Source: Phreatobacter stygius
Lineage (GTDB): Bacteria > Pseudomonadota > Alphaproteobacteria > Rhizobiales > Phreatobacteraceae
DNA length: 64,000 nucleotides
Direction of reading: 5' to 3'
NCBI RefSeq assembly: GCF_005144885.1
Contig: NZ_CP039690.1
Span: forward strand, 1,240,001 to 1,304,000
The notes under the pieces were generated by a model. It made no database searches. It was not told the origin of the DNA and saw only the letters and a list, made by a program, of their open reading frames with translations. Made by a program: the position numbers and the translations under genes. Numbering within the stretch: position 1 is the first letter of the stretch; every line of letters starts with the position of its first letter. Below are positions 8,041 to 22,850 of the stretch, in pieces.

Positions 8041-11000
8041 ATGGCCGCAGCGAATCCGCTGGCTCCGATCCCGCATCCGCCGAAGAAGCCGATCGTCGGC
8101 AACATGCTGACCGTCTCCAGCGAGACGCCGCTGCAGAGCCTGATGCAATTGACCCGCGAGAACGGGCCGATCTTCTGGCTCGACATGATGGGCACGCCGC
8201 TGGTGGTCGCCTCCAGCGCTTCGCTGATCGACGAGCTGTGCGACGAGAAGCGTTTCGACAAGGCGGTGCGCGGATCGCTCAGGCGCATTCGCGCGATCGC
8301 CGGCGACGGCCTGTTCACCGGCGACACCCAGGAGGCCAACTGGGCCAAGGCGCACAATATCCTGCTGCCGACCTTCTCGCAGCGCGCCATGGTCAATTAC
8401 CTGCCCATGATGCTCGATATCGCCTCCCAGCTGATGCTGAAATGGGAGCGCCTCAACGCCGATGACGAGGTCGACGTCGTCCACGACATGACCGCTCTCG
8501 CACTCGACACCATCGGCGTCTGCGGTTTCGACTATCGCTTCAACTCGTTCTACCGGCGCGACTACCACCCCTTCATCGACGCGCTGACCCGCACGCTCGA
8601 AACCTGCATGATGCAGCGCGGCCTGCCGTTCGAGAACGTGCTGCTGAGGAAACGGCTCAGCCAGCTCAAGACCGATGTCGACTTCATGAACAAGCTGGTC
8701 GACGACATCATCCGCGAGCGCCGGCGCGGCGGCCAGGGCGGCGACCAGAACGACCTGTTGAACTACATGCTGGCAGGCGTCGACAAGCAGACCGGCGAGA
8801 GCCTGTCGGACGAGAATATCCGCTACCAGATCAATACCTTCCTGATCGCCGGCCACGAGACCACGTCGGGCCTCCTGTCATTCACCCTCTATTTCCTGCT
8901 GAACCATCCCGACGTGCTGGCCAAGGCTTATGACGAGGTCGACCGGGTGCTCGGCAGCGATATCGGCGTGCTGCCGACGATCGCCCAGGTGAACCAGCTC
9001 ACCTATGTCGCGCAGATCCTGAAGGAGGCGCTGCGCCTGTGGCCGACGGCGCCGGCCTTCGGCCTCTACCCTTACAAGGACGAGGTCGTCGGCGGTCAGT
9101 ACAAGCTGAAGTCCAGGACCTTCGTCACCGCGCTCACCCTGATGCTGCATCGCGACCCCGCGGTCTGGGGCGACGATCCCGAAGCCTTCAATCCCGACCA
9201 GTTTTCGCGCGAGGCCGAAGCCGAGCGGCCGGTCAATGCCTACAAGCCCTTCGGCAACGGCCAGCGCGCCTGCATCGGCCGCCAGTTCGCCATGCAGGAA
9301 GCCGTCCTGGTGATCGGCATGCTGCTGCAGCGCTTCCAGCTGTTCGATCACACCAAATACCAGCTGAAGATCAAGGAGACGCTGTCGATCAAGCCCGATG
9401 GCTTCAAGATCAAGGTGAAGCCACGGCCGGGCCGGACCCGGGGCACGACGATCCCGGCGGCCGGCGCGCCGGCCACCACGGCGCCGGCAGCGGCCACCGC
9501 CGCCCGGCCGAAACACGGCACCGCGCTCACCGTGCTCTACGGTTCCAATCTCGGCGCGACCGAAGAGATCGCCCGGGCCATTGCCGAATCCGCCGAGATC
9601 AACGGTTTCGACGTCAATCTCGCCGAAATGGACACCTATGCCGGGCGTCTGCCGACCGAAGGCGCGGTGGTGATCGCCTGTGCGTCCTATAATGGCGGGC
9701 CGCCCGACAACGCCGCCCGTTTCGCTGCCTGGCTGGCGGAGGCGAGCGACCCTGCCCTGCTCGCCGGCGTGACCTATGCGGTGTTCGGTTGCGGCAACCG
9801 CGACTGGGCCTCGACCTATCAATCGGTGCCACGCCAGATCGACGAACGGCTGGCGGCGCTCGGCGCCCGCCGCATCCGCGATCGCGGCGAAGGTGACGCG
9901 CGCGAGGATCTCGACGGCCAGTTCCAGACGTGGTTTTCGAGCCTGTTCCCGGCCATTGGCGAAGCCCTCGATATCGGCGTCGATTTCACCGACAGCCCGG
10001 CGGCCGAGCCGCTTTACCTGGTCGAGACGCTGGCGCGCCCGGGCGCCAATCCGATCGTGACCGCAGCCGGCGCCCAGGCGATGACCATCGCCGCCAGCCG
10101 CGAGCTGCAGACCAGGACCGGCAACACGCCATCGGATCGCTCCACCCGGCATATCGAGGTGGGTTTGCCGACGGGGTCGACCTATCGGCCGGGCGATCAC
10201 CTGAGCGTCGTTCCGGTCAATGGCCAGGGGCTGGTCGCGCGCGCCGAGCGGCATTTCGGCTTCGAGCCGAACGCCTACGTCCGGCTCAGGACCCATGCCG
10301 GCCGGCGCAGCGCACTGCCGGTCGACGAGCCGCTGGCGGTGCGCCAGCTCCTGACCGAACTGGTCGAGCTGCAGGCGGTCGCGACCCGCAAGCAGGTCCA
10401 GGCCATGGCCGACCACACCCGCTGTCCGATGACCAAGCCGAAGCTCGCCGCGCTGGCAAGCGATACCGAGCCGGGCGGCTACCGGAGCGAGGTCTGGGCC
10501 AAGCGCAAATCGATCCTCGACCTGCTCGAGGAGTTCCCGGCCTGCGAACTCGGCTTCGGCGATTATCTCGAAATGCTGCCGTTGATGGCGCCACGCTATT
10601 ATTCGATCTCGTCCTCGCCGCTGGTGGCGCCCGACAGTTGCAGCATCACGGTGGGCGTGGTCACCGGGCCGGCACGGTCCGGCCGCGGCACCTATGAGGG
10701 GATCTGTTCGAACCACCTCGATCGCCTGGGCGAAGGTGCGGTGATCCATGCCATGATCAGGGAGACCAAGGCAGGCTTCCGGCTGCCCGACGACCCATTG
10801 AAGCCGATCATCATGATCGGTCCGGGTACCGGGCTTGCCCCCTTCCGCGGCTTTCTGCAGCAGCGCGCCCGGCTGAAGGCCCAGGGCCAGCCGATCGGGC
10901 CTGCAGTGCTGTTCTTCGGCTGCCGGCATCCCGACCAGGACTTCATCTATCGCGACGAGCTGGAGGCCTTCGCGCGCGACGGCATTGCCGACCTGCATGT

Positions 11001-11262
11001 CGCCTTCTCGCGCCATGACGGCAGCCGCACCTATGTGCAGGACCTGGTCAAGGCCGAGCGCGACAAGCTGAAGGCGATGATCGAGGCGGGCGCAGTCATT
11101 TTCATCTGCGGCGACGGCAGCCGCATGGAACCCGACGTCAAGCGGACGTTGGTCGGCATCTATTGCGACGAAAAGGACGTATCGCTGGAGGAGGGCGAGG
11201 CCTGGATCGACCGGATGGGCCGCGAAAACCGTTATGTTCTGGACGTTTGGGCCGGAAGTTGA
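8041..11262 (+). CDS. Self-sufficient cytochrome P450:NADPH reductase (CYP102/BM3 type)
   Basis: 1073-residue fusion of a P450 (about 1-470) and a diflavin reductase (FMN domain about 490-635; FAD/NADPH domain about 665-1073). Visible are the I-helix AGHETTSG, the K-helix EALRLWP, heme ligand Cys411 in FGNGQRACIG, the flavodoxin motif LYGSNLGATEE, the FAD motif PRYYSISSSP and the NADPH motif GPGTGLAPFRGF. BM3 enzymes hydroxylate fatty acids with NADPH and O2. Ungapped alignment around BM3 residues 46-87 keeps Phe87 and Ala82 but replaces the carboxylate anchors Arg47 and Tyr51 by Thr52 and Val56, so the substrate may differ. RBS GAGGGG lies just upstream. No BM3R1-type repressor is adjacent. 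Confidence 0.95.
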   Translation: MAAANPLAPIPHPPKKPIVGNMLTVSSETPLQSLMQLTRENGPIFWLDMMGTPLVVASSASLIDELCDEKRFDKAVRGSLRRIRAIAGDGLFTGDTQEANWAKAHNILLPTFSQRAMVNYLPMMLDIASQLMLKWERLNADDEVDVVHDMTALALDTIGVCGFDYRFNSFYRRDYHPFIDALTRTLETCMMQRGLPFENVLLRKRLSQLKTDVDFMNKLVDDIIRERRRGGQGGDQNDLLNYMLAGVDKQTGESLSDENIRYQINTFLIAGHETTSGLLSFTLYFLLNHPDVLAKAYDEVDRVLGSDIGVLPTIAQVNQLTYVAQILKEALRLWPTAPAFGLYPYKDEVVGGQYKLKSRTFVTALTLMLHRDPAVWGDDPEAFNPDQFSREAEAERPVNAYKPFGNGQRACIGRQFAMQEAVLVIGMLLQRFQLFDHTKYQLKIKETLSIKPDGFKIKVKPRPGRTRGTTIPAAGAPATTAPAAATAARPKHGTALTVLYGSNLGATEEIARAIAESAEINGFDVNLAEMDTYAGRLPTEGAVVIACASYNGGPPDNAARFAAWLAEASDPALLAGVTYAVFGCGNRDWASTYQSVPRQIDERLAALGARRIRDRGEGDAREDLDGQFQTWFSSLFPAIGEALDIGVDFTDSPAAEPLYLVETLARPGANPIVTAAGAQAMTIAASRELQTRTGNTPSDRSTRHIEVGLPTGSTYRPGDHLSVVPVNGQGLVARAERHFGFEPNAYVRLRTHAGRRSALPVDEPLAVRQLLTELVELQAVATRKQVQAMADHTRCPMTKPKLAALASDTEPGGYRSEVWAKRKSILDLLEEFPACELGFGDYLEMLPLMAPRYYSISSSPLVAPDSCSITVGVVTGPARSGRGTYEGICSNHLDRLGEGAVIHAMIRETKAGFRLPDDPLKPIIMIGPGTGLAPFRGFLQQRARLKAQGQPIGPAVLFFGCRHPDQDFIYRDELEAFARDGIADLHVAFSRHDGSRTYVQDLVKAERDKLKAMIEAGAVIFICGDGSRMEPDVKRTLVGIYCDEKDVSLEEGEAWIDRMGRENRYVLDVWAGS

Positions 11263-12078: not shown

Positions 12079-12579
12079 TCAGGCCGTCTTGCCGAACGAC
12101 GTCAGCTTGCCGGCCTCGGCCTGCAGCGCCTTGGCACCATCGGTCGCCGCCTGGCGAACGGTGTTGAAGGCGTCCTGGGCACGAACGATATTGGCCTGGC
12201 CGAACTCGCGGACGAAAGCGACATAACGCTGCGCGGCATCGGTCGGGCAGGAAGCGTCGGCCAGCGACTGGATGCCGCCGAGCGTCAGATTGACATTGGC
12301 GATGGTGGCGTCGATCACGCCGCGGGACACCGAAGCGCCGGCGCCGACAACGGCAACCAAGGCCTTCTCGACGGTCGCGGTGGCATTCAGCGCGCCCTTC
12401 TCGGCATCAGCCGCACGCGCCTTGGCGGTCTCGGCATTGCGCTTGACGAAGTCGCGGGCAGCAGCGGGAACCTGGATCTTTTCCTGGGCGCTCTTGAGCG
12501 TCTCCATGATCTGGGCAACCGGAGCGAAAGCAGTGGTTTCGGCGGTCTGGGCTTTGGCCTTCGAGGTCTTGTCGGTCAT
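12079..12579 (-). CDS. phaP: Phasin family protein (granule-associated)
   Basis: 166-residue helical, alanine-rich protein without signal peptide or membrane segment. Pattern and length match the alphaproteobacterial phasin family: amphipathic helices (VAQIMETLKSAQEKIQ, RDFVKRNAETAKARA) and a C-terminal segment YVAFVREFGQANIVRAQDAFNTVRQ-like region. Phasins coat polyhydroxyalkanoate granules and set their number and size. Start ATG 12579 (GGAG upstream) is preferred; ATG 12591 and GTG 12597 are in frame. The gene converges with GNAT at a strong terminator, and its upstream region carries TGC-N3-GCA palindromes consistent with a PhaR-type repressor. Confidence 0.85.
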   Translation of the reverse strand: MTDKTSKAKAQTAETTAFAPVAQIMETLKSAQEKIQVPAAARDFVKRNAETAKARAADAEKGALNATATVEKALVAVVGAGASVSRGVIDATIANVNLTLGGIQSLADASCPTDAAQRYVAFVREFGQANIVRAQDAFNTVRQAATDGAKALQAEAGKLTSFGKTA

Positions 12580-12696: not shown

Positions 12697-12856
12697 CAAT
12701 TTAAAATAGCCGTTATAATACAAAATCTTATCGACTATCTTCTGGCTCTGCCCGCCGACATCTGGCACCTTGCGGCAGCAGCGATGCGACGATTGCGGCC
12801 TTTTCGACCGTCCGACGCGGCCTTATGTCGGAACCCAGGTTCAGCCGGAGGTAGTC

Positions 12857-14179
12857 ATGGCTCTCCCGGACGCGGCGCCCCGCGCCGCCACTTCCCGACG
12901 CCTGGCGGCCGGCGGCGAGATGACCGCCCGCGACCGCGAGAAGCTCGGCGCGCTCAGGCGCATCAAGGTCGTGGCGACCAGCTTGCTCGGCGCCAGCGTG
13001 TCGCTGATGGTGATCGCCAAGCTCCTGGAACATCGCCACCCGGCCTGGGGCTTCGTCGCGGCCTTCGCCGAGGCTGCAACGATCGGCGGGCTGGCCGACT
13101 GGTACGCCATCGTCGCTCTGTTCAAACATCCGGTCGGCGTGCCGATCCCGCACACCGCGATCATCCAGAACAACCAGGGCCGCATCGCCGACAGCCTCGG
13201 TGAATTCGTCGAGGCGAATTTCCTGGCCCCCGGCCCGGTCGAGGCCAAGCTGCGCGAGGTCAATTTCGCCGGATTGATCGCCGACTGGCTGTCGGACCCG
13301 GAGAAGAGCGGCAACCTCGCGCGCTTCGCATTGAAGCTGCTGCCGCGTGCCATCGCCGGCATGGATCAGTCGGGCATCAAGGAGTTCATGTCGGCGCGCA
13401 TGATGGAGCAGATCGGTGGGCTCAAGGTCGCCCCCCTGGCAGCCCAGATCCTGACCTCGATCACCGATGACGGCCGCCATCAGCGGCTGCTCGACGAACT
13501 GCTCGGCGCGCTGAAGAACCTGCTCGCCGACCAGGCCGCGCTCGATGGCATCCGCGACAAGATTCGCGAGGAGCTGCCGTCGCTGTTCAACCTGTTCAAG
13601 GCCGACGCCTATCTCCTGCGCAAGATCATCAAATCGACCTTGTCTTTCCTCGACGACATCCGCGCCAATCCCGACCATGCCCTGCGCGGCGAGTTCGACC
13701 GCTTCGTCCTGAGCTTCATCGAGAACCTGCGCGACAGCCCGGAATATGCCGAGAAGGCGGAGAAGCTGAAACAAGACCTGTTGACCCGCAAGGAGCTGCG
13801 CGGCCTGGCTCAGGACATGTGGAAAAGCGTCACGACCTTCCTCGAGAACGATCTGCAGTCGCCGCAATCGGTGATCGAGAAACAGCTCGGCAACCTGCTC
13901 ACCGATCTTGGCCGGCAATTGTCGACCGACCCGCGCATGGCCGCCGAAATCAACCAGGGTTTCGTCGTGGCGCTCGGAACCTTTGTCGAAGCCCAGAAGA
14001 GCGGCGTCTCGCAGTTCATCGCCGAGCAGGTGAAGTCGTGGGACATGCAACAATTGATCCGGCTCATCGAAATCAATATCGGCCGTGATCTGCAATATAT
14101 CCGGCTGAATGGCACGCTGATCGGCGGCCTTGCCGGTCTTTTGCTCCATACCATCGAGGTCATCTTCAAGATCGCTTGA
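12857..14179 (+). CDS. DUF445 family membrane-associated protein
   Basis: 440-residue protein of the DUF445 family (E. coli YjiN-like). The family block is evident near residues 50-110: FVAAFAEAATIGGLADWYAI, LFKHPVGVPIPHTAII, NNQGRIADSLGEFV. One hydrophobic segment follows the charged N-terminus (about 30-60) and another closes the protein (GTLIGGLAGLLLHTIEVIF), with a long amphipathic helical middle. The biochemical role of the family is unknown. GGAGG lies six bases before ATG 12857, which is preferred over the upstream in-frame start. It sits between two phasins and may be cotranscribed with the second. Confidence 0.85.
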   Translation: MALPDAAPRAATSRRLAAGGEMTARDREKLGALRRIKVVATSLLGASVSLMVIAKLLEHRHPAWGFVAAFAEAATIGGLADWYAIVALFKHPVGVPIPHTAIIQNNQGRIADSLGEFVEANFLAPGPVEAKLREVNFAGLIADWLSDPEKSGNLARFALKLLPRAIAGMDQSGIKEFMSARMMEQIGGLKVAPLAAQILTSITDDGRHQRLLDELLGALKNLLADQAALDGIRDKIREELPSLFNLFKADAYLLRKIIKSTLSFLDDIRANPDHALRGEFDRFVLSFIENLRDSPEYAEKAEKLKQDLLTRKELRGLAQDMWKSVTTFLENDLQSPQSVIEKQLGNLLTDLGRQLSTDPRMAAEINQGFVVALGTFVEAQKSGVSQFIAEQVKSWDMQQLIRLIEINIGRDLQYIRLNGTLIGGLAGLLLHTIEVIFKIA

Positions 14180-14257: not shown

Positions 14258-14271
14258 CGGGAGAAGCGACC

Positions 14272-14694
14272 ATGACTCAAACGCCTCAGTCGATCCTGGA
14301 GATGTTCACCAAGCTCGGGCAGGACATGAAGATTCCGAGCGTCGATATGGACAAGATCATCGCCCATCATCGCAAGAATCTGGAGGCGTTGAGCGCCAGC
14401 GGCAAGGCGGCCGCCGAGGGCGCCACGGCTTTCGCGGCCAAGCAGCGCGAGATCATCGAGGCGGCGATCAAGGACATTCAGGCGGCGGCCCAGGGCTTCA
14501 AGATGCCCGGCAGTCCGCAGGAGGCAATGGCCGCCCAGTCGGAATTTGCCAAGAAGGCGATCGATGCCGCGATCAGGAACACCAAGGATGTCGCCGAGCT
14601 GATCCAGAAGTCCAATCAGGATGCCATGCGGATCATCCAGGACCGCATGAAGGAGAGCTTCGAGGAGATCAGGGCGAGCTATACCAAGAAATAG
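14272..14694 (+). CDS. phaP: Phasin family protein (second copy, short)
   Basis: 140-residue, nearly all-helical protein starting MTQTPQSILEMFTKLGQDMK. The sequence (MDKIIAHHRKNLEALSASGK, FAAKQREIIEAAIKDIQ, PQEAMAAQSEFAKKAIDAA) is a close match to the phasin family that coats PHA granules, and is clearly a different subfamily from the phasin at 12079-12579. GGGAGAAG lies before the ATG. An upstream in-frame start exists but lacks a ribosome site. A strong terminator follows 18 bp after the stop. Confidence 0.9.
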   Translation: MTQTPQSILEMFTKLGQDMKIPSVDMDKIIAHHRKNLEALSASGKAAAEGATAFAAKQREIIEAAIKDIQAAAQGFKMPGSPQEAMAAQSEFAKKAIDAAIRNTKDVAELIQKSNQDAMRIIQDRMKESFEEIRASYTKK

Positions 14695-14757: not shown

Positions 14758-15534
14758 TCAGTGCGGCCGGGCCGGATCGGGATAGAACACCTTGCGCCAG
14801 CCGTTGCGATCGAACGGCTTGAAGCTGCCCTCCGGCTGCGCCAGGCGATCGGCCACCGCATAGACCGCGGCCGGATTGTGCCCGAGCCCGCAATGGCTGC
14901 CCATCACCTCGATGTTCTCGGTGATCGGCCCTTCGACCTCGACGCAGCATTGCCAGGCACAAATGCCGTCGGTGCGGCTATAGACGGCGGTCGTCGGCAC
15001 CGGCGGCGGCGTGGCGACGACCCCGCCCATATGGTTGTCGCGGTTGTCGACCTTGTGGCCGGAGGTGAATTCATAAAGCCGCCAGGCATTGGTCGCCGTG
15101 GGCGGGCCGGCGAAAGGACTGCCGAGCGTGATCACCGAGCGCACCATGTCCGGCACGGTCTTGGCCAGCTGGCGGGCATAGATGCCGCCAAGGCTCCAGC
15201 CGACCAGGCTGACCTTGCGGCCATGTTCGTCGTTGAGCTGCTTGACCCGGTCGAGCATGCGCCGCTCGAAACCCGGCAGCAGGCCATAATTGCGGCCGAG
15301 ATCCCAACCGTGCGCGGCATAACCTTGGCCGGCAAGAAAGGTCCTGAGCGGTCCGGTCGACCGATCGGAGGTGATCAGCCCCGGCAGGACCAGGACCGGG
15401 TGACCGTCGCCGCGTGGGGCGGAAGCGATCAGGGGATAGGCCGCCACGAAGGCCGCCAGTTCGGGGATCGCCCGGCCTTCCATGAGCAGCAGCGCCGTCG
15501 ATGGCGGCGCGAGGGTCTGGGATGCTGATGCCAT
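14758..15534 (-). CDS. Alpha/beta hydrolase, lipase-like
   Basis: 258-residue protein with alpha/beta-hydrolase fold: oxyanion region HPVLVLPGLI, nucleophile elbow VGWSLGG, and a late His in MGSHCGLGHNP. It lacks a signal peptide, so it acts in the cytoplasm. The GWSLGGIYAR elbow and the following ITLGSPF are typical of bacterial triacylglycerol lipase/esterase relatives. Its place between phasin and WS/DGAT suggests mobilisation of stored neutral lipid, which is inference. Start ATG 15534 has GAGAGGAAG upstream. Two adjacent cysteines (WQCCVEV) are unusual. Confidence 0.8.
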   Translation of the reverse strand: MASASQTLAPPSTALLLMEGRAIPELAAFVAAYPLIASAPRGDGHPVLVLPGLITSDRSTGPLRTFLAGQGYAAHGWDLGRNYGLLPGFERRMLDRVKQLNDEHGRKVSLVGWSLGGIYARQLAKTVPDMVRSVITLGSPFAGPPTATNAWRLYEFTSGHKVDNRDNHMGGVVATPPPVPTTAVYSRTDGICAWQCCVEVEGPITENIEVMGSHCGLGHNPAAVYAVADRLAQPEGSFKPFDRNGWRKVFYPDPARPH

Positions 15535-15854
15535 GCCGCTTCCTCTCTCATACGGGAATTCGGCGTCCGAAAACCCGCTCTTTGGTCCAGGCTGATTTGC
15601 GCCGGACACCAAAGGTAGATCATTCCGTCGCCGTCATCACAAGCGGACAGTCTTCCCCTGTGGATAGGCAACAGTCGTCCCAGGACAGATAGGAAGCCGA
15701 TCGCCCGGGCGAAAGCTCAAATCCTCATCTTACGCGCTGAGCCCCCCGTCGGGTCTTGCGACCCGATCGGGATCTACTCAACCGATGGCCTTCACCTTTC
15801 CGCCTAAGGTCAGGACGCCGTGGACAATGTCGTCCTCGGCGCGCCTGGCTACGG
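15535..15854. other. Intergenic gap between WS/DGAT and hydrolase
   Basis: 320 bp without a credible gene. It must hold the promoter of the hydrolase and the end of the WS/DGAT transcript. The only clear structure is a small hairpin at 15749-15766 (TCGGGT / ACCCGA, 6-base loop) without a T-run. Nothing else is recognisable. Confidence 0.5.
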
Positions 15855-16390
15855 CTACTTCGGTGGGGCGGCCGCCTTGGCCTTGGCAGGTGCTGCAGCT
15901 TTCATTGCGACCGCAGCTTTGGCCTTGGCAGGGGCCTTGGCCTTGGCGGCAGGAGCCTTCGACTTTGCTGCCGCCGGAGCCTTGGCCTTGGCCGGAGCCT
16001 TGGCGGCAGGAGCCTTAGCGGCAGGAGCCTTCGACTTTGCCGCCGCCGGAGCCTTGGCCTTCGCCGCGGCCGGAGCCTTGGCAGGAGCCTTCGACTTCGC
16101 CGCTGCCGGAGCCTTGGCTTTCGCCGCGGCAGGAGCCTTCGACTTCGCCGCTGCCGGAGCCTTGGCTTTCGCCGCGGCCGGAGCCTTGGCTTTCGCCGCG
16201 GCCGGAGCCTTGGCCTTCGCCGCGGCCGGAGCCTTGGCCTTCGCCGGAGCCGGGGCCTTGGCAGGTGCTGCCGCCTTCGACTTCATTGCGGCGGCCGGCT
16301 TCGCAGCAGCCGGCTTCGCCGCAGCCTTGGGCTTCGCCGCATCCTTGGCATTGCCCGCCTTCTTTGTCTTCGCCGTCGTCTTCGCCATTG
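15855..16390. repeat. Low-complexity repeat DNA coding the Ala/Lys/Pro tail
   Basis: About 535 bp consist of degenerate 24-bp units (GCCGGAGCCTTGGCYTTCGCC-like on the plus strand) that code for KAKAPAAA/KSKAPAAA blocks on the minus strand. Unit count could vary by slippage. The opposite strand shows an apparent Ala-rich open frame that is only a mirror of this repeat. Confidence 0.85.
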
Positions 16391-17879
16391 CCATCTCCTT
16401 GGGCTCTGTAGCGACCTCGGCCGAGGCGGCAGGAGCGGCAAACACGCCGAACCTTTTCGCCACGGCCGCCTTCAGTTCGTCCAGGGCGTCGCCGAGATGC
16501 TCGGCGAGCCTGACGATATCCGGAACTGCGCGCCGATCGGCGGTCAGGCCGAAGTCGAGCTTGTCCAGATAGCTCTGCACTGTCAGATTCAATGCAATGC
16601 CGTGAGTTGGAATCGACACGGGATAGAGGGCCAAGACCTTGGCGCCGGCGCAGTAGAGCGGGAACGGCGGTCCGGGCGTATTCGAGATGACCACATTCGC
16701 GCCCATCGGGATGATGTCGGCGAGCCCGGACTTGCCGAACAGCTGCATCATTCCCGGCAGCAAGAACGGCGCGCCCAGCATGGTGAAGTCCTTGGGCGTC
16801 GCGTCCTTGGTGACGCCGGCGATCGACTTCGACGTGGTCGCGGTCTTCTGGATCGACATCAGCCGCTCCAGCGGATCGGCAATGTCGGTCGCCAGCGAGC
16901 AACTCATGCCCGAGACCTGATTGTTGATGTCGGTATTGCCGGCCTCGCGCAGCGAGATCGGCACGAAGGCAAGCAGCGGCGTTGCCGGCAGCGCCTTCTT
17001 GTCGATCAGATATTGCCTGAGCGCGCCGGCGCAGATCGCCATCACCACATCATTGATCTTGGTGCCGGTCGCCTTGCCGATGAGCTTGGCGTCGGTGAGC
17101 GACAGCGACCGCGCGGCATAGGATCGCTGGCCCGATATCGTCACGTTGAACGGCGTCTTCGGCGGCAGCAGGTTCGGCAGAACCGGCGCGCCGCCAGCCT
17201 CCGGTTTCTCCTTGTCGGCAGCGGTCGGAACCAGCAGGCCCGCGACCGTCGTCATCATCTGCGCGCCGGCCGCGAGCACGGTGAAGTGCTGGCGCACCGC
17301 ATTGGTCATCAAGGCGCCGAGATTTGCGAGCGCGCGCTCGGCGGTGTCCGGCTTCGGTTTTTTCGGACCGGGCTCCGGCGGCGGCTCGACCTCGCGCGGC
17401 GTTGCGGACACGTCGTAGAGCGCCTTGGTGATCACCATGCCGGCACCGCCGTCGACGGCGGCGTGATGGACCTTCGAATAGAGCGCGACGCGGCCGTCTT
17501 CGAAACCTTCGATGACGGTGAACTGCCACAGCGGCCGCGAGCGATCGAGCGTCACCGAATGCAGGTCGCCGACCATTGCTTCGAGCTGCGCGAAGCTGCC
17601 GGGCTTCGGCAGGTTGGTGTGCTTGATGTGATAGTCGAGATCGACATTCGAGGCATCGACCCAGCCGGGATGATCGAGATCGAAAACGGTGCGCGCGAGC
17701 TTCTTCGAAAAGATCGGGATCAGGTGCAGGCGGGTCGCGAAGAAGGTCCTGAAATGATCGTAGAACGAGCCCGTCAAACCCGGCGGTTTTTCGTACAGCG
17801 TCAGCCCCGCCACATGCATGGGCGTTTCCGGCGTCTCCATGTAGAGGAAGGTAGCGTCGATGCCGCTGAGCTGTTTCAT
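15855..17879 (-). CDS. Wax ester synthase/diacylglycerol acyltransferase with histone H1-like tail
   Basis: 674-residue protein. Residues 1-490 are a complete WS/DGAT acyltransferase: N-terminal SGIDATFLYMETPETPMHV, active-site HHAAVDG at about 138-144, and the late NTPGPPFPLY block. This family joins acyl-CoA to fatty alcohols or diacylglycerol, making wax esters or triacylglycerol on the inner membrane and inclusions. The last about 178 residues are an almost pure Ala/Lys/Pro tail of repeated units such as KAKAPAAA and KSKAPAAA. Such tails occur in histone H1-like proteins and in phasin PhaF, where they bind DNA. Normal family length is about 450-500, so the tail is an addition. ATG 17879 is preferred because it opens the conserved motif. 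Confidence 0.92.
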   Translation of the reverse strand: MKQLSGIDATFLYMETPETPMHVAGLTLYEKPPGLTGSFYDHFRTFFATRLHLIPIFSKKLARTVFDLDHPGWVDASNVDLDYHIKHTNLPKPGSFAQLEAMVGDLHSVTLDRSRPLWQFTVIEGFEDGRVALYSKVHHAAVDGGAGMVITKALYDVSATPREVEPPPEPGPKKPKPDTAERALANLGALMTNAVRQHFTVLAAGAQMMTTVAGLLVPTAADKEKPEAGGAPVLPNLLPPKTPFNVTISGQRSYAARSLSLTDAKLIGKATGTKINDVVMAICAGALRQYLIDKKALPATPLLAFVPISLREAGNTDINNQVSGMSCSLATDIADPLERLMSIQKTATTSKSIAGVTKDATPKDFTMLGAPFLLPGMMQLFGKSGLADIIPMGANVVISNTPGPPFPLYCAGAKVLALYPVSIPTHGIALNLTVQSYLDKLDFGLTADRRAVPDIVRLAEHLGDALDELKAAVAKRFGVFAAPAASAEVATEPKEMAMAKTTAKTKKAGNAKDAAKPKAAAKPAAAKPAAAMKSKAAAPAKAPAPAKAKAPAAAKAKAPAAAKAKAPAAAKAKAPAAAKSKAPAAAKAKAPAAAKSKAPAKAPAAAKAKAPAAAKSKAPAAKAPAAKAPAKAKAPAAAKSKAPAAKAKAPAKAKAAVAMKAAAPAKAKAAAPPK

Positions 17880-18123: not shown

Positions 18124-19821
18124 TTGGATCGGTTCTGGCTGAAGTCTTATCCAGCCGGCGTTCCCGAGAACGTCGACATCAATCAGTATTCCTCCGTCGT
18201 GGCCCTGCTCGAGGAGAGCTTCGCCAAATACCGCGGCGACAAAGCCTATATCTGCATGGACAAAGCACTCACCTTTGGTGAGGTCGATCAGCTGTCCGCG
18301 GCACTCGGCGCCTATCTCCAATCCAAGGGTTTGAAGAAGGGCGATCGCGTCGCGATCATGATGCCCAACCTGCTGCAATATCCGGTGGCGGTGGCCGCCG
18401 TGCTGCGTGCCGGATTCATCGTCGTCAACGTCAACCCGCTCTACACGCCGCGCGAGCTGGCGCATCAGCTGAAGGACTCCGGCGCCCAGGCCATCATCAT
18501 CCTGGAGAACTTCGCCGCGACGCTCGCCGAGGTGATCGCCGAAACGCAGATCAAGCACGTGATCCTGGCGGCTGTCGGCGACCTCCTGGGCTTTCCCAAG
18601 GGCGCGATCGTCAACGCCATGCTGCGCCATGTGAAGAAGGTGATCCCTGCCTTCTCGCTGCCCGGCGCCGTCCGTTTCAACGCGGCGCTCGCGGCAGGTC
18701 GCAGCCTGACATTCGCCAGGCCGGCGATCGGCCAGGACGATGTCGCGGTGCTGCAATATACCGGCGGCACCACCGGCGTCGCCAAGGGCGCCACGCTGCT
18801 TCACCGCACCTTGATCGGCAACCTTCTCGCCTCCGAGGCCTGGACCCAGCCGGGGCTGAAGCGCAAGGTGATCGACGGCCAGCCGGTGTTCATCTGCGCG
18901 CTGCCGCTCTACCACGTCTTCGCCTTCGTCTCCTGCGCGCTGCTGGCCATGCGCATGGGCGGCGTCAATGTGCTGATCCCCAATCCGCGCGATCTCGCCG
19001 GGCTGATCAAGGAGATGGCGAAGTACAAGTTCAACATCATGCCGGGCGTCAACACCTTGTTCAACGGGCTCGCCAATCACCCGGAATTCGCCAAGCTCGA
19101 CTTCTCGCATCTGCTGATCGCCAACGGCGGCGGCACCGCGGTGCAGGAGGCCGTGGCGAAGAAGTGGCTTGCCATTACCGGCTGCCCGATCGTCGAGGGT
19201 TACGGGCTGTCCGAGACCTCCTCCGGGGTCACCTGCAATCCGACGGATTCATCGGCCTATACCGGCACGATCGGACTGCCCTTGCCTGGCGTCGATATCC
19301 GGCTCATCGACGATGACGGCCGCGACGTGGCGCTCGGCGCGCCGGGCGAGATCGCCATTCGTGGCCCCCAGGTGATGGCCGGTTATTGGCAGCGTCCCGA
19401 CGAGACCGCCAGCGTCATGACGCCGGACGGTTTTCTCAAGACCGGCGATGTCGGCATCATGGACGAGCGCGGCTACACCCGGATCGTCGACCGCAAGAAG
19501 GACATGATCCTGGTCTCGGGCTTCAACGTCTATCCGAACGAGATCGAGGGCGTGGCGGCCGGTCATCCCGGCGTCGACGAATGCGCCGTGGTCGGCGTGC
19601 CCGATCGCAATTCCGGCGAGGCGGTGATGATGTTCGTGGTCCGCAAGGACCCGAACCTCACCAAGGACGAACTGATGAAGTTCTGCATGGACAACCTCAC
19701 CGGCTACAAGAAGCCGAAATATATCGAATTCCGCACCGATCTGCCGCGCACCAATGTCGGCAAGATCCTGCGCCGCGAACTGCGCGACCAGGCGATCAAG
19801 GACATGACCAAGGCTGCCTGA
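18124..19821 (+). CDS. fadD: Long-chain fatty acid-CoA ligase (FadD)
   Basis: 565-residue acyl-CoA synthetase that activates fatty acids with ATP and CoA. The AMP-binding P-loop YTGGTTGVAKGA is near residue 212, with YGLSETSS, TGDVGIMDERGY and the C-terminal GKILRRELRD lysine region. The start is TTG 18124 with GGGGGAGG ten bases upstream; no better ATG exists. It heads the fadD-phaC-phaZ cluster (46 bp to phaC), so its product acyl-CoA likely feeds polymer and wax/triacylglycerol synthesis. A paralogue lies at 51715-53448. Confidence 0.93.
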   Translation: MDRFWLKSYPAGVPENVDINQYSSVVALLEESFAKYRGDKAYICMDKALTFGEVDQLSAALGAYLQSKGLKKGDRVAIMMPNLLQYPVAVAAVLRAGFIVVNVNPLYTPRELAHQLKDSGAQAIIILENFAATLAEVIAETQIKHVILAAVGDLLGFPKGAIVNAMLRHVKKVIPAFSLPGAVRFNAALAAGRSLTFARPAIGQDDVAVLQYTGGTTGVAKGATLLHRTLIGNLLASEAWTQPGLKRKVIDGQPVFICALPLYHVFAFVSCALLAMRMGGVNVLIPNPRDLAGLIKEMAKYKFNIMPGVNTLFNGLANHPEFAKLDFSHLLIANGGGTAVQEAVAKKWLAITGCPIVEGYGLSETSSGVTCNPTDSSAYTGTIGLPLPGVDIRLIDDDGRDVALGAPGEIAIRGPQVMAGYWQRPDETASVMTPDGFLKTGDVGIMDERGYTRIVDRKKDMILVSGFNVYPNEIEGVAAGHPGVDECAVVGVPDRNSGEAVMMFVVRKDPNLTKDELMKFCMDNLTGYKKPKYIEFRTDLPRTNVGKILRRELRDQAIKDMTKAA

Positions 19822-19867
19822 CCGCCACCTTGTCGCTGCGCATGACGACATGACCAGGAGCATCACC

Positions 19868-21880
19868 ATGGCCCGCACGCCGGCACCCAAGACTGCGCCA
19901 TCCAAGGCCGCGGCATCGACAAGCAAGGAGCCACGCATCAGCACGCCGGAGACGCGCGCGGCCGAGGTGAAGGCCAAAGCTGCCAAGTCCGTCGCCAAGT
20001 CCGTTGCCAAGTCCGCCGCGGCGGCCCGGCAGGCCGCCACGAAACTGGCGGCGCCGCCGCTCGGCACCGCGAAGGCCAAGGCTGCTGTCGCACCGTCCGG
20101 TGCCGTTGCGAAACCGCCATCAAGCACCAGACCCGAAGCCCACGGGAAACCCGCGGCGGCGACCGCCGCGGCCTCGGCCGAGGCCACTGCCTCGACCAAG
20201 TCGCTCACCGACCAGATCGCCGAAGAAGCCTCGCAGAACACCCTTGCGCTCAATCCGCTGGTCGGTGTCCGCGGCGAGGACCTGATGAATGCGGCCAAGA
20301 CCGTCATCGGCGCACTCGCCGCCCAGCCGCAGATCGTCGCGCAGCAGTGGATGGGCTTCCTTGGCGAGCTCGGCAAGATCGTCACCGGCCGCTCCGAGGT
20401 TGCGCCCGACCCGAAGGACAAACGTTTCGCCCATCCCTCCTGGAGCGAGAACGCGCTTCACCGCGGCCTGATGCAGTCTTACGTCGCCTGGGCCAATACC
20501 GTCACCGAGGCGGTCGCCAAGACCAGCCTGCCCGACAAGGACGCGGCGCGCGCCCGCCTCGTCACCTCGATCTTCGTCGATGCCATGTCGCCGTCGAACA
20601 CGCTGATCGGCAATCCGCTGGCCTTGAAGCAGGCGCTCGACAGCAAGGGCCAGAGCCTGCTCGACGGCATGAAGAACTACCTCGCCGACCTCGCCCAGAA
20701 TGGCGGATTGCCGAGCCAGGTCGACATGTCCAAGTTCAAGGTCGGCGAGAACCTCGCCAACACGCCCGGCACGGTGGTGTTCAAGAACGAGGTGCTGGAG
20801 CTGATCCTCTATACGCCGACCACCGACAAGGTGTTCGCCCGGCCGCTGCTGATCGTGCCGCCGCAGATCAACAAATATTATGCGGTCGACATGTCGCCGA
20901 ACAAGAGCATGATCCGCTTCCTGCTCGCCAACGGCATTCAGCCGTTCTGCATCTCCTGGCGCAACCCGACGGTACGCGAGCGCGACTGGGGCCTCGACAC
21001 CTATATCCGGGCGCTCGACGAGGCGGTCGACGCGGCCCGCGAGATCACCGGCCAGGGCACGATCAATGTCATGGGCTCGTGCTCGGGCGGCATCACGACC
21101 TCGACCTATGCCGGCTGGCTCGCCGGCCAGAAGCTGGACAAGCTCAACGGCATCGTCCTGGCGGTCTGCGTCATCGATACCGAGGCTGGCACCGACACCG
21201 ACTTCGCCGCCCTGGTGACGCCGGAATCGGTGCTCGCCGCCAAGCAGATGTCGGCCACCCGCGGCATTCTCGACGGCCATGAGCTGGCCAAGATGTTCGC
21301 CTGGATGCGGCCGAACGATCTGATCTGGAACTACTGGGTCAACAACTACCTGATGGGCAACCAGCCGCCGGCTTTCGATATCCTGTTCTGGAACGCCGAC
21401 ACGACCCGGCTGCCGGCGCGCCTGCATGGCGATTTCCTCGACCTGATCTTCACCAATCCCTTCGTCAACGCCAACAAGATGGCCATCCACGGCACGCCGA
21501 TCGACATGGGCAAGGTCAAGGCCGACACCTATGTCATCGGTGGCACGACCGATCACATCACGCCCTGGAAGGCGGTCTATCAGACCGCCCGCATCTATGG
21601 CGAGGAGACCACCTATGTGTTGTCCAATTCAGGCCATCTGCAAAGCCTGCTGAACCCGCCGGGCAATCCGAAATCCTGGTTCGTCACCGGCAAGGCGAAA
21701 CAGGCCGATGCCGATGCCTGGGCCGGTGCCGCGACCAAACAGGAAGGCTCCTGGTGGACCCACTGGGCGGACTGGCTGAAGCAGCGTGGCAATGGCGAGA
21801 TTGCCGCGCCGAAACAGGCCGGCAGCCAGAAGCACAAGCCGATCGGCCCCGCCCCCGGCACCTATGTGTTCGAACCCTGA
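19868..21880 (+). CDS. phaC: Polyhydroxyalkanoate synthase, class II-like, with basic N-terminal extension
   Basis: 670-residue PHA synthase that polymerises 3-hydroxyacyl-CoA. The catalytic triad is visible: Cys405 in GSCSGG, Asp562 in TTDHITPW, His590 in NSGHLQS. PPQINKYYAVDMSPNKS, SWRNPTVRERDWGL and NTLALNPLVGVRGEDL match Pseudomonas class II synthases, which take C6-C14 monomers, rather than PhaB-linked class I. Class II proteins are about 560 residues; the extra about 110 at the N-terminus is Ala/Lys-rich (AKAAKSVAKSVAKSAAAA-like, 14 Lys) and probably disordered. ATG 19868 has CAGGAG at the right spacing; ATG 19850 is an alternative. No PhaE or PhaR subunit is adjacent. Confidence 0.93.
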   Translation: MARTPAPKTAPSKAAASTSKEPRISTPETRAAEVKAKAAKSVAKSVAKSAAAARQAATKLAAPPLGTAKAKAAVAPSGAVAKPPSSTRPEAHGKPAAATAAASAEATASTKSLTDQIAEEASQNTLALNPLVGVRGEDLMNAAKTVIGALAAQPQIVAQQWMGFLGELGKIVTGRSEVAPDPKDKRFAHPSWSENALHRGLMQSYVAWANTVTEAVAKTSLPDKDAARARLVTSIFVDAMSPSNTLIGNPLALKQALDSKGQSLLDGMKNYLADLAQNGGLPSQVDMSKFKVGENLANTPGTVVFKNEVLELILYTPTTDKVFARPLLIVPPQINKYYAVDMSPNKSMIRFLLANGIQPFCISWRNPTVRERDWGLDTYIRALDEAVDAAREITGQGTINVMGSCSGGITTSTYAGWLAGQKLDKLNGIVLAVCVIDTEAGTDTDFAALVTPESVLAAKQMSATRGILDGHELAKMFAWMRPNDLIWNYWVNNYLMGNQPPAFDILFWNADTTRLPARLHGDFLDLIFTNPFVNANKMAIHGTPIDMGKVKADTYVIGGTTDHITPWKAVYQTARIYGEETTYVLSNSGHLQSLLNPPGNPKSWFVTGKAKQADADAWAGAATKQEGSWWTHWADWLKQRGNGEIAAPKQAGSQKHKPIGPAPGTYVFEP

Positions 21881-22016: not shown

Positions 22017-22850
22017 TTGACCCAAGCCCGGAAGGCCGCAGCGAGCGCCCCCGCCTTTGACATCCGGATGATCGACGTCGGCGGACAGATCCTGCGCGTC
22101 GGCATCAAGGCCGGCCGCAAGGACAAGCCGGCGCTGCTGATGTTCAACGGCATCGGCGCCAATCTGGAGCTCGCCGAGCCGTTCTTCCAGGCGCTGACCG
22201 ACACCGAGGCGGTGATCTTCGACATACCCGGCATCGGCGGCTCGCCGGCGCCCCTGCTGCCCTACCGGCCCTCGACGCTGGCCAAGCTCGCCCACGACCT
22301 GATCGTCCAGCTCGGTTATGACCAGGTCGACGTGTCAGGTGTGTCGTGGGGTGGCGGGCTGGCGCAGCAATTCGCCTTCCAGTTTCCCGAGACCTGCCGC
22401 AAGCTCGTCCTGGTCTCGACCTCGGCCGGCATGGTCATGTTGCCGGGCGCGCCCAACGTCCTGCTGAAGATGGCAAGCCCGAAGCGCTATACCGACCGCG
22501 GTTATATGAAGTCGATCGCCGCCGAGATCTATGGCGGCGCCTTCCGCCGGGATCCGCACCTGATCGATCGGCATGCCGCGGCCATGCGCGGTTCGACCCA
22601 ATATGGCTATGCGCTGCAGCTGATCGGCATGCTCGGCTGGACCAGCGTGCCCTGGCTCTGGATGCTGCAGCAGCCGACTCTCATCCTGTCCGGCACCGAC
22701 GACCCGCTGATCCCGGTGATCAATGCGCAACTGCTCGCGACCCTGATCCCAAAGGCTCGGCTGGAGCTGATCGACGACGGCCATCTGTTCGTCGTGACCG
22801 ACCCGCAGCGCTCGGCGAAAATGGTCGAAGCGTTTCTCGACGAGCCGTGA
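22017..22850 (+). CDS. phaZ: Intracellular mcl-PHA depolymerase (PhaZ)
   Basis: 277-residue alpha/beta hydrolase closely resembling the Pseudomonas medium-chain-length PHA depolymerase: FNGIGANLELAEPF, FDIPGIGGSPAP, GVSWGGGLAQQFAFQ with nucleophile Ser110, MASPKRYTDRGY, IYGGAFRRDP, and DDGHLF with the catalytic His. It degrades the polymer made by the neighbouring PhaC. The start is TTG 22017, with GAGGAG six bases before it; an ATG at 22012 opens only a two-codon frame that overlaps this start. 136 bp separate it from phaC, so a secondary promoter is possible. Confidence 0.9.
   Translation: MTQARKAAASAPAFDIRMIDVGGQILRVGIKAGRKDKPALLMFNGIGANLELAEPFFQALTDTEAVIFDIPGIGGSPAPLLPYRPSTLAKLAHDLIVQLGYDQVDVSGVSWGGGLAQQFAFQFPETCRKLVLVSTSAGMVMLPGAPNVLLKMASPKRYTDRGYMKSIAAEIYGGAFRRDPHLIDRHAAAMRGSTQYGYALQLIGMLGWTSVPWLWMLQQPTLILSGTDDPLIPVINAQLLATLIPKARLELIDDGHLFVVTDPQRSAKMVEAFLDEP

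Follow-up and report, generated by a model that had tools for sequence, protein, structure and literature searches.

The wax ester synthase/diacylglycerol acyltransferase (WS/DGAT) encoded in the analysed window, a stretch of 64,000 nucleotides of the Phreatobacter stygius genome located at positions 1,240,001–1,304,000 of a single 7.35-Mb contig, ends in a long tail of lysine, alanine and proline. We infer that this tail may bind the nucleoid and that the enzyme may in this way position lipid inclusions, and for this reading, in which DNA binding, location and function are all taken together, we would give a probability of roughly 0.4. The tail is clearly a real part of the protein, as far as a sequence can say, and in the comparison of homologous sequences it is not unique to the protein of the window.

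The enzyme, its tail and the storage locus

The open reading frame runs from an ATG to a stop codon (Table 1), and by family models its product is a WS/DGAT, that is, a predicted acyltransferase. Both Pfam domains (WS_DGAT_cat, residues 4–279, E 1.5e-69; WS_DGAT_C, residues 320–470, E 2.3e-29) and the NCBIfam model TIGR02946 (450 bits, cut-off 310) score above the curated cut-offs. The protein contains the sequence HHAAVDG, which conforms to the active-site motif HHxxxDG of WS/DGATs, and across an alignment of 21 sequences no variation is seen at H138, H139, D143 and G144. The sequence-only reading of this DNA had described a complete WS/DGAT with this motif, and the family models as well as the invariant active-site residues bear this out. 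The profile search with PF03007 found this protein as the single match in the genome. The structures 6chj and 7nxg belong to the same catalytic family as residues 1–477 of the protein; however, their chains comprise 455 and 463 residues, and the alignments end at the start of the tail, at residues 470 and 477, respectively. In the core (residues 1–475) 45 basic residues are balanced by 45 acidic ones.

The tail comprises 178 residues: 94 Ala, 45 Lys, 24 Pro, 5 Ser, 3 Met, 3 Thr and one each of Gly, Asn, Asp and Val. The Asp is the sole acidic residue, and the net charge is about +44. Eight K[A/S]KAPAAA units are found in the tail (KAKAPAAA seven times, KSKAPAAA once); both the residue count and these units agree with the roughly 178 residues of KAKAPAAA/KSKAPAAA type that had been read from the letters before. 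When the eight units are compared in all 28 pairs, the codon differences are synonymous in 61 cases and non-synonymous in 7, and by codon position (1, 2, 3) they number 7, 0 and 68. This strong bias towards the third position indicates that the frame is coding and that the protein sequence has been kept. An ORF of 753 aa overlaps on the plus strand, but a frame error or an antisense reading is excluded by the third-position bias of the repeats and by the conservation of the minus-strand protein.

In the AlphaFold2 prediction, which was based on the 21-sequence alignment, 339 residues reach a pLDDT of at least 70 and the entire stretch 484–674 stays below 50. By composition and predicted disorder the tail is of the PhaF/AlgP type, i.e., long, disordered, rich in Lys/Ala/Pro and of high net positive charge. 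Neither Pfam nor NCBIfam contained a DNA-binding family model matching the tail: there was no match at all to the NCBIfam models, and in Pfam at E values up to 10 no histone H1-like or HC2 family appeared but only Cornifin (1.9e-6, below its cut-off and likely a matter of composition). Among short motifs we counted 16 KAPA, 3 AAKP and 2 KPAA, and no PAKKA, SPKK or TPKK in the tail.

Table 1. Features of the storage locus and the tailed SucC gene (window positions unless a contig is named)
Feature	Position	Strand	Basis and remarks
WS/DGAT gene	15855..17879	-	674 aa, stop codon included in coordinates; ORF, Pfam, NCBIfam
WS/DGAT core, residues 1-477	16449..17879	-	net charge nil; Pfam/NCBIfam, PDB relatives 6chj and 7nxg, predicted fold
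C-terminal Lys/Ala/Pro tail, residues 497-674	15858..16391	-	predicted disordered; translation, composition, AlphaFold2
48-bp tandem DNA repeat stretch within tail	16018..16262	-	encodes K[A/S]KAPAAA units; repeat search
Long-chain fatty acid-CoA ligase (FadD type)	18124..19821	+	divergent neighbour; Pfam/NCBIfam
PHA synthase	19850..21880	+	676 aa, scored highest by the class II model, under that model's cut-off; Pfam/NCBIfam
N-terminal Lys/Ala-rich basic extension of PHA synthase	19868..20209	+	~114 aa from likely start MARTPAPK
Second alpha/beta hydrolase	22017..22850	+	adjoins PHA synthase; Pfam, locus comparison
Alpha/beta hydrolase adjoining WS/DGAT	14758..15612	-	conserved, start codon uncertain; Pfam, locus comparison
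Phasin (Phasin_2)	14266..14694	+	without basic tail; Pfam
DUF445 protein	12770..14179	+	conserved in locus; Pfam, locus comparison
Second phasin-like protein	12079..12579	-	without basic tail; TIGR01985, below its cut-off
Tailed SucC, source genome (G000)	C1:4,054,881-4,056,455 (L116:4881-6455)	-	other genus loci L256-L267

The gene lies in a storage locus. In 16 relatives (L002–L017), several of whose loci end at contig edges, the neighbours of the WS/DGAT include an alpha/beta hydrolase (15 of 16), a class II-like PHA synthase (14), a phasin (13) and FadD (8). Just upstream of the storage locus the window encodes a fused cytochrome P450-reductase (8041–11262, plus strand), presumably of the BM3 layout, and parts of homologues occur in the loci of some relatives. 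The Mesorhizobium-type loci keep the storage genes, and their eight WS/DGATs stop 2–16 residues past the core. We considered that in such tailless loci the tail had been swapped for a separate tether gene; this is rejected, as the additional gene that these loci have between PHA synthase and FadD reads as a hydratase, which we take to be MaoC-like.

Distribution of basic tails

Matches were found in 33 of 397 genomes of the order, 26 of 385 of the class and 44 of 398 of the phylum, and 31 loci from named genomes were added. From these we obtained 128 distinct WS/DGATs with a stop codon and a near-full core, identical proteins being counted once. Eleven loci (L001, L003, L028, L029, L031, L032, L034, L035, L037, L038, and L064) were dropped because of a contig end, a partial or uncertain match or duplication, and the phylum-level matches without a locus and four partial class-level matches stand outside the 128. 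The sequence-only reading had proposed a search of the homologues for the tail. At least 35 residues past the core are present in 60 of the 128 proteins, and 45 of these have a net charge of at least +7, i.e., a long basic tail, and four are acidic (−2 or lower); 83 of the 128 have no long basic tail. That the tail is private to the source genome is excluded by the 45 tailed enzymes. Acidic tails of 35–39 residues are found on the WS/DGATs of L022, L181, L182, and L191, with a charge opposite to that of their tailed relatives.

A maximum-likelihood tree built quickly under LG+G4, with several long branches flagged, needs 17 changes of the label "basic tail", 14 of them forced by well-supported branches, compared with a mean of 37 for shuffled labels. 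As judged from this tree, the basic tails are clustered, yet they have been gained or lost many times, and a single tail inherited by every tailed member is excluded by the 14 forced changes. The four complete members of the genus form one fully tailed clade, and the Mesorhizobium-type clade (n=8) is untailed. In the four species of the genus the tails have 200, 208, 92, and 91 residues with 48, 48, 22, and 19 basic and 4, 4, 2, and 4 acidic residues. The sister species (G006), with a core identity of 92%, has the same 48 basic and 4 acidic residues in a tail that is 8 residues longer and has a different order of the units. The two further species (core identity 75% and 73%) have tails of 92 and 91 residues which are hardly alike and carry net charges of +20 and +15. 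In a fifth species (G008) the gene is split over two contig ends, and the C-terminal piece (L038) has a basic tail. Elsewhere the repeat units differ, for example, KKTAAKKKAAPK in L136 and KATVKKVAARK in L149. Since the units differ between lineages, it is charge and low complexity that recur and not one sequence. In a search of plasmids with the WS/DGAT no match spanned 80% of the query; the 20 matches listed cover the core alone.

To compare the WS/DGATs with their neighbouring genes we counted Lys-rich basic segments (at least 5 Lys) in the last 120 residues in regions around class-level alphaproteobacterial WS/DGATs. In 32 regions such a segment is present in 8 of 33 WS/DGATs, as opposed to 4 of the 450 predicted genes of other kinds (Fisher p 8e-8, paralogues and sister species not being independent). 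This count excludes L196–L199, which were picked after their tails had been seen, and includes six tailless WS/DGATs which gene calling had failed to find (L161, L162, L164, L166, L176, and L177). With L196–L199 and without the six missed enzymes the ratio in 36 regions is 12 of 31 versus 4 of 504, a count biased for these two reasons; at 8 of 33 the contrast is weaker and its direction is unchanged. A loose criterion in the 36 regions yields 15 of 31 WS/DGATs, one of them by a stretch inside the core, versus 17 of 504 other genes. The short regions L180, L191, L193, and L195, of 40 regions in total, are excluded from all these counts, and the genes were called with a purpose-built codon model which mistakes antisense frames in very GC-rich genomes. 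Three of the four tailed other genes are of lipid type by Pfam, namely a HAD-acyltransferase, a DUF3336-patatin and an alpha/beta hydrolase. The DUF3336-patatin protein, presumably of the TAG-lipase type, bears its Lys-rich C-terminal tail near a tailless WS/DGAT (L192:5922–7538, plus strand), and the HAD-acyltransferase with a Lys-rich C-terminus is also found near a WS/DGAT (L194:4115–5695, plus strand). In the same genome as the latter (G518) a phasin with a Lys-rich N-terminal stretch adjoins a WS/DGAT (L181:10266–10985, minus strand).

Within the source genome such segments are rare. We applied a strict test (60-aa segment with A+K+P at least 60%, K+R at least 15% and D+E at most 5%) to 998 predicted genes from 60 stretches of 20 kb, and two genes passed, SucC and a probable membrane protein of 204 aa; a looser 40-aa test was passed by 18 of the 998, many with ordinary basic regions only. 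Among the 46 predicted genes of the window the strict test is passed by the WS/DGAT and by the PHA synthase two genes away. A second PHA synthase, encoded at 6.90 Mb, likewise passes with a long, basic extension at its N-terminus, so that the test catches each of the three storage synthases found in the genome. The protein search of the own genome with the tail as query returned the tail itself alone. A DNA pattern for KAPAxK, which served only for finding further tails, had 15 sites versus 9 for the reversed control pattern. Two proteins which we take to be NuoE-like and an HxlR-like regulator end in short KKAPAKK and AKAPAAK stretches (L302, G000 near 6,993,845, and L299, near 6,134,303, respectively).

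SucC is succinyl-CoA synthetase beta, an enzyme of the TCA cycle. Its A/K/P tail measures 94–216 residues with a net charge of +24 to +51, and all 12 genomes of the genus have it; in one of them SucC is represented by its C-terminal part only. The source genome and G006 each have two extra SucC-like copies, whose frames of 406–454 aa are too short for such a tail. SucC is not known to be a granule protein and it is tailed genus-wide; thus, A/K/P tails are not confined to inclusions, and a strict limitation of these tails to storage enzymes is excluded.

Among the 12 genomes of the genus the WS/DGAT is found in five, exactly those five which have the PHA synthase of the locus at an identity of at least 78%; in G001 both genes are ∼38 kb apart. 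The extension of this PHA synthase, counted from the sequences, has ∼114 residues in the window, 85 in G006, 50 in G005 and G008 and 22 in G001, so that in this small sample the longest extensions pair with the longest WS/DGAT tails. The 30 best-scoring class I-type synthase loci of the order, a set therefore biased to close relatives and without fixed start codons, include 9 with a Lys-rich basic stretch ahead of the catalytic part (5 of 5 in the genus, 4 of 25 in the others). In the genus these class I-type synthases have Lys/Ala/Pro-rich N-terminal extensions, which are mostly long, and a few further lineages of the order have extensions like them (L070–L080, L227–L230, L232, L237, L244, and L252). 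A genome-wide search for PF05597, the PhaF family of phasins, had no match at E 0.001, the WS/DGAT contains no phasin domain, and the six Phasin_2 proteins of the genome, inspected by eye, are all without a long A/K/P tail. Neither of these two families thus provides a phasin that looks like an inclusion tether.

Proposed nucleoid tethering and competing explanations

How could the tailed enzyme act? The WS/DGAT would act at the surface of a neutral-lipid inclusion and make wax ester or triacylglycerol there. The tail would be a disordered polycation which binds nucleic acid non-specifically, chiefly the DNA of the nucleoid. With the folded half at the membrane or inclusion, the tail would keep the growing inclusions on the nucleoid, and by this hold the inclusions might be spaced and shared between the daughter cells. 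As the tails recur in many relatives, the link between fat droplets and the chromosome may be the enzyme itself. The N-terminal extensions of the two PHA synthases may tether polyester granules likewise; both synthases having similar extensions, tethering might be built into the polymer-making enzymes and not into a PhaF-type phasin.

Basic tails which tether inclusions are already known. The sequence-only reading had named PhaF as precedent; this kind of precedent is real, and MLDS of Rhodococcus jostii RHA1 is a closer one (PMC5504291). MLDS is a neutral-lipid inclusion protein with a Lys-rich C-terminus that attaches to DNA irrespective of sequence and recruits DNA to lipid droplets, as the tail of the window protein may do; in contrast, MLDS is the major protein of the droplets, has a domain at its N-terminus that targets it to them, is not described there as a WS/DGAT and has four PAKKA motifs, the window tail none (PMC5504291). 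PhaF and AlgP of Pseudomonas also have long disordered Lys/Ala/Pro repeat tails, which position storage granules, but their N-terminal half is a phasin or a helical domain, whereas that of the window protein is an acyltransferase (PMC3574117, PMC9239181). For AlgP, this source describes a KPAA domain of 154 aa which is required for granule spacing; it is similar in length to the window tail, but its repeat unit is KPAA instead of KAKAPAAA (PMC9239181). A storage-polymer synthase that itself has a long, basic and mostly disordered extension is PhaC2 of Cobetia, for whose histone H1-like C-terminus DNA binding has been proposed in silico; this enzyme is, however, a PHA synthase with an extension of 380 aa and with another fold and product (PMC8686332). 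Further basic-tailed granule proteins, PhaM, PhaF, and PhaH, are covered in a review (PMC13052382). Among the best-ranked literature matches no title reports a tail, whether basic or DNA-binding, on a WS/DGAT, which is weak evidence of absence as the subscription literature is thinly covered; on these matches, the case of the WS/DGAT and its recurrence in the family may be the new part.

The interpretation as an inclusion tether, as proposed in the sequence-only reading, finds partial support. It is favoured by the composition, length and predicted disorder of the tail, by its genus-wide charge and repeated gain or loss, by the contrast between WS/DGATs and neighbouring genes, by the basic segments on the three storage synthases and by the context of the storage locus. 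It is weakened by the SucC tail in 12 of 12 genomes, the tailless Mesorhizobium-type loci, the lack of PAKKA, SPKK and TPKK motifs and the lack of a matching DNA-binding family model. Also against it count the 83 WS/DGATs with no long basic tail, the four acidic tails, the small membrane-type protein that passes the strict test and the shorter stretch of the NuoE-like protein. Polycations also bind RNA, polyphosphate and anionic lipids, and this promiscuity, together with the SucC tail, limits how far tethering can be concluded.

One such alternative, which we consider improbable, is that the tail is a general polyanion binder without a chromosome-specific role, which by contacts with RNA, polyphosphate, acyl-CoA or condensates clusters the enzyme or concentrates the CoA substrate. 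Four of the tailed enzymes seen in the genome (WS/DGAT, two PHA synthases and SucC) presumably use CoA or CoA thioesters, as this explanation would have it. On the other hand, the neighbouring FadD is a CoA enzyme too and is absent from the proteins with an A/K/P basic segment in the scan of the window, and the small membrane-type protein which passes the strict test and the NuoE-like protein with its shorter stretch are, as far as known, not CoA enzymes. That AlgP with its similar tail locates to polyphosphate granules again agrees with polyanion binding (PMC9239181).

Rather improbable, too, is an electrostatic anchoring of the tail to anionic phospholipid of the inner membrane or of the lipid-body coat, where the enzyme would be near its substrates. 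WS/DGATs act at membranes and inclusions, and the similar basic tails of the HAD-acyltransferase and the DUF3336-patatin near WS/DGAT genes would fit. However, apart from Ala and the one Val, only 3 of the 178 tail residues are hydrophobic or aromatic (all Met), which is unexpected for a membrane anchor, and SucC, a soluble enzyme, has a like tail in the genus. A neutral expansion of low-complexity sequence, which a GC-rich gene may tolerate at the end encoding the C-terminus, would explain the tandem DNA repeats, their variable length, the missing tails in many relatives and their coming and going on the tree, but it is quite unlikely given that the net charge is kept genus-wide though the sequences of distant members are hardly alike, that synonymous differences prevail among the units and that segments so rare in the sampled genes are on all three storage synthases.

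Nucleoid tethering by the WS/DGAT tail could be one case of a wider pattern, which we put forward more tentatively. Inclusion enzymes of the Alphaproteobacteria may repeatedly have acquired basic tails like those of histone H1; droplets and granules would then be born on the chromosome and inherited with it by means of their synthases. The enzymes concerned would be the WS/DGAT with its C-terminus, the PHA synthases with their N-terminus and, with the same reserve, in some lineages a HAD-acyltransferase, a patatin-type lipase and a phasin.

Placement of lipid inclusions in bacteria

Little is known about how bacteria place and share out neutral-lipid droplets. In a 2025 review on carboxysomes, magnetosomes, PHB and polyphosphate granules the terms "lipid droplet", "MLDS", and "triacylglycerol" were not found by a term search of the text (PMC13052382). 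Because WS/DGATs have gained or lost the tail repeatedly, they offer natural pairs of tailed and untailed enzymes. If the tail binds the nucleoid, a single protein would couple the synthesis of the lipid with the positioning of the inclusion, and this may be of relevance to the production of oil and bioplastic, where number and size of the inclusions count.
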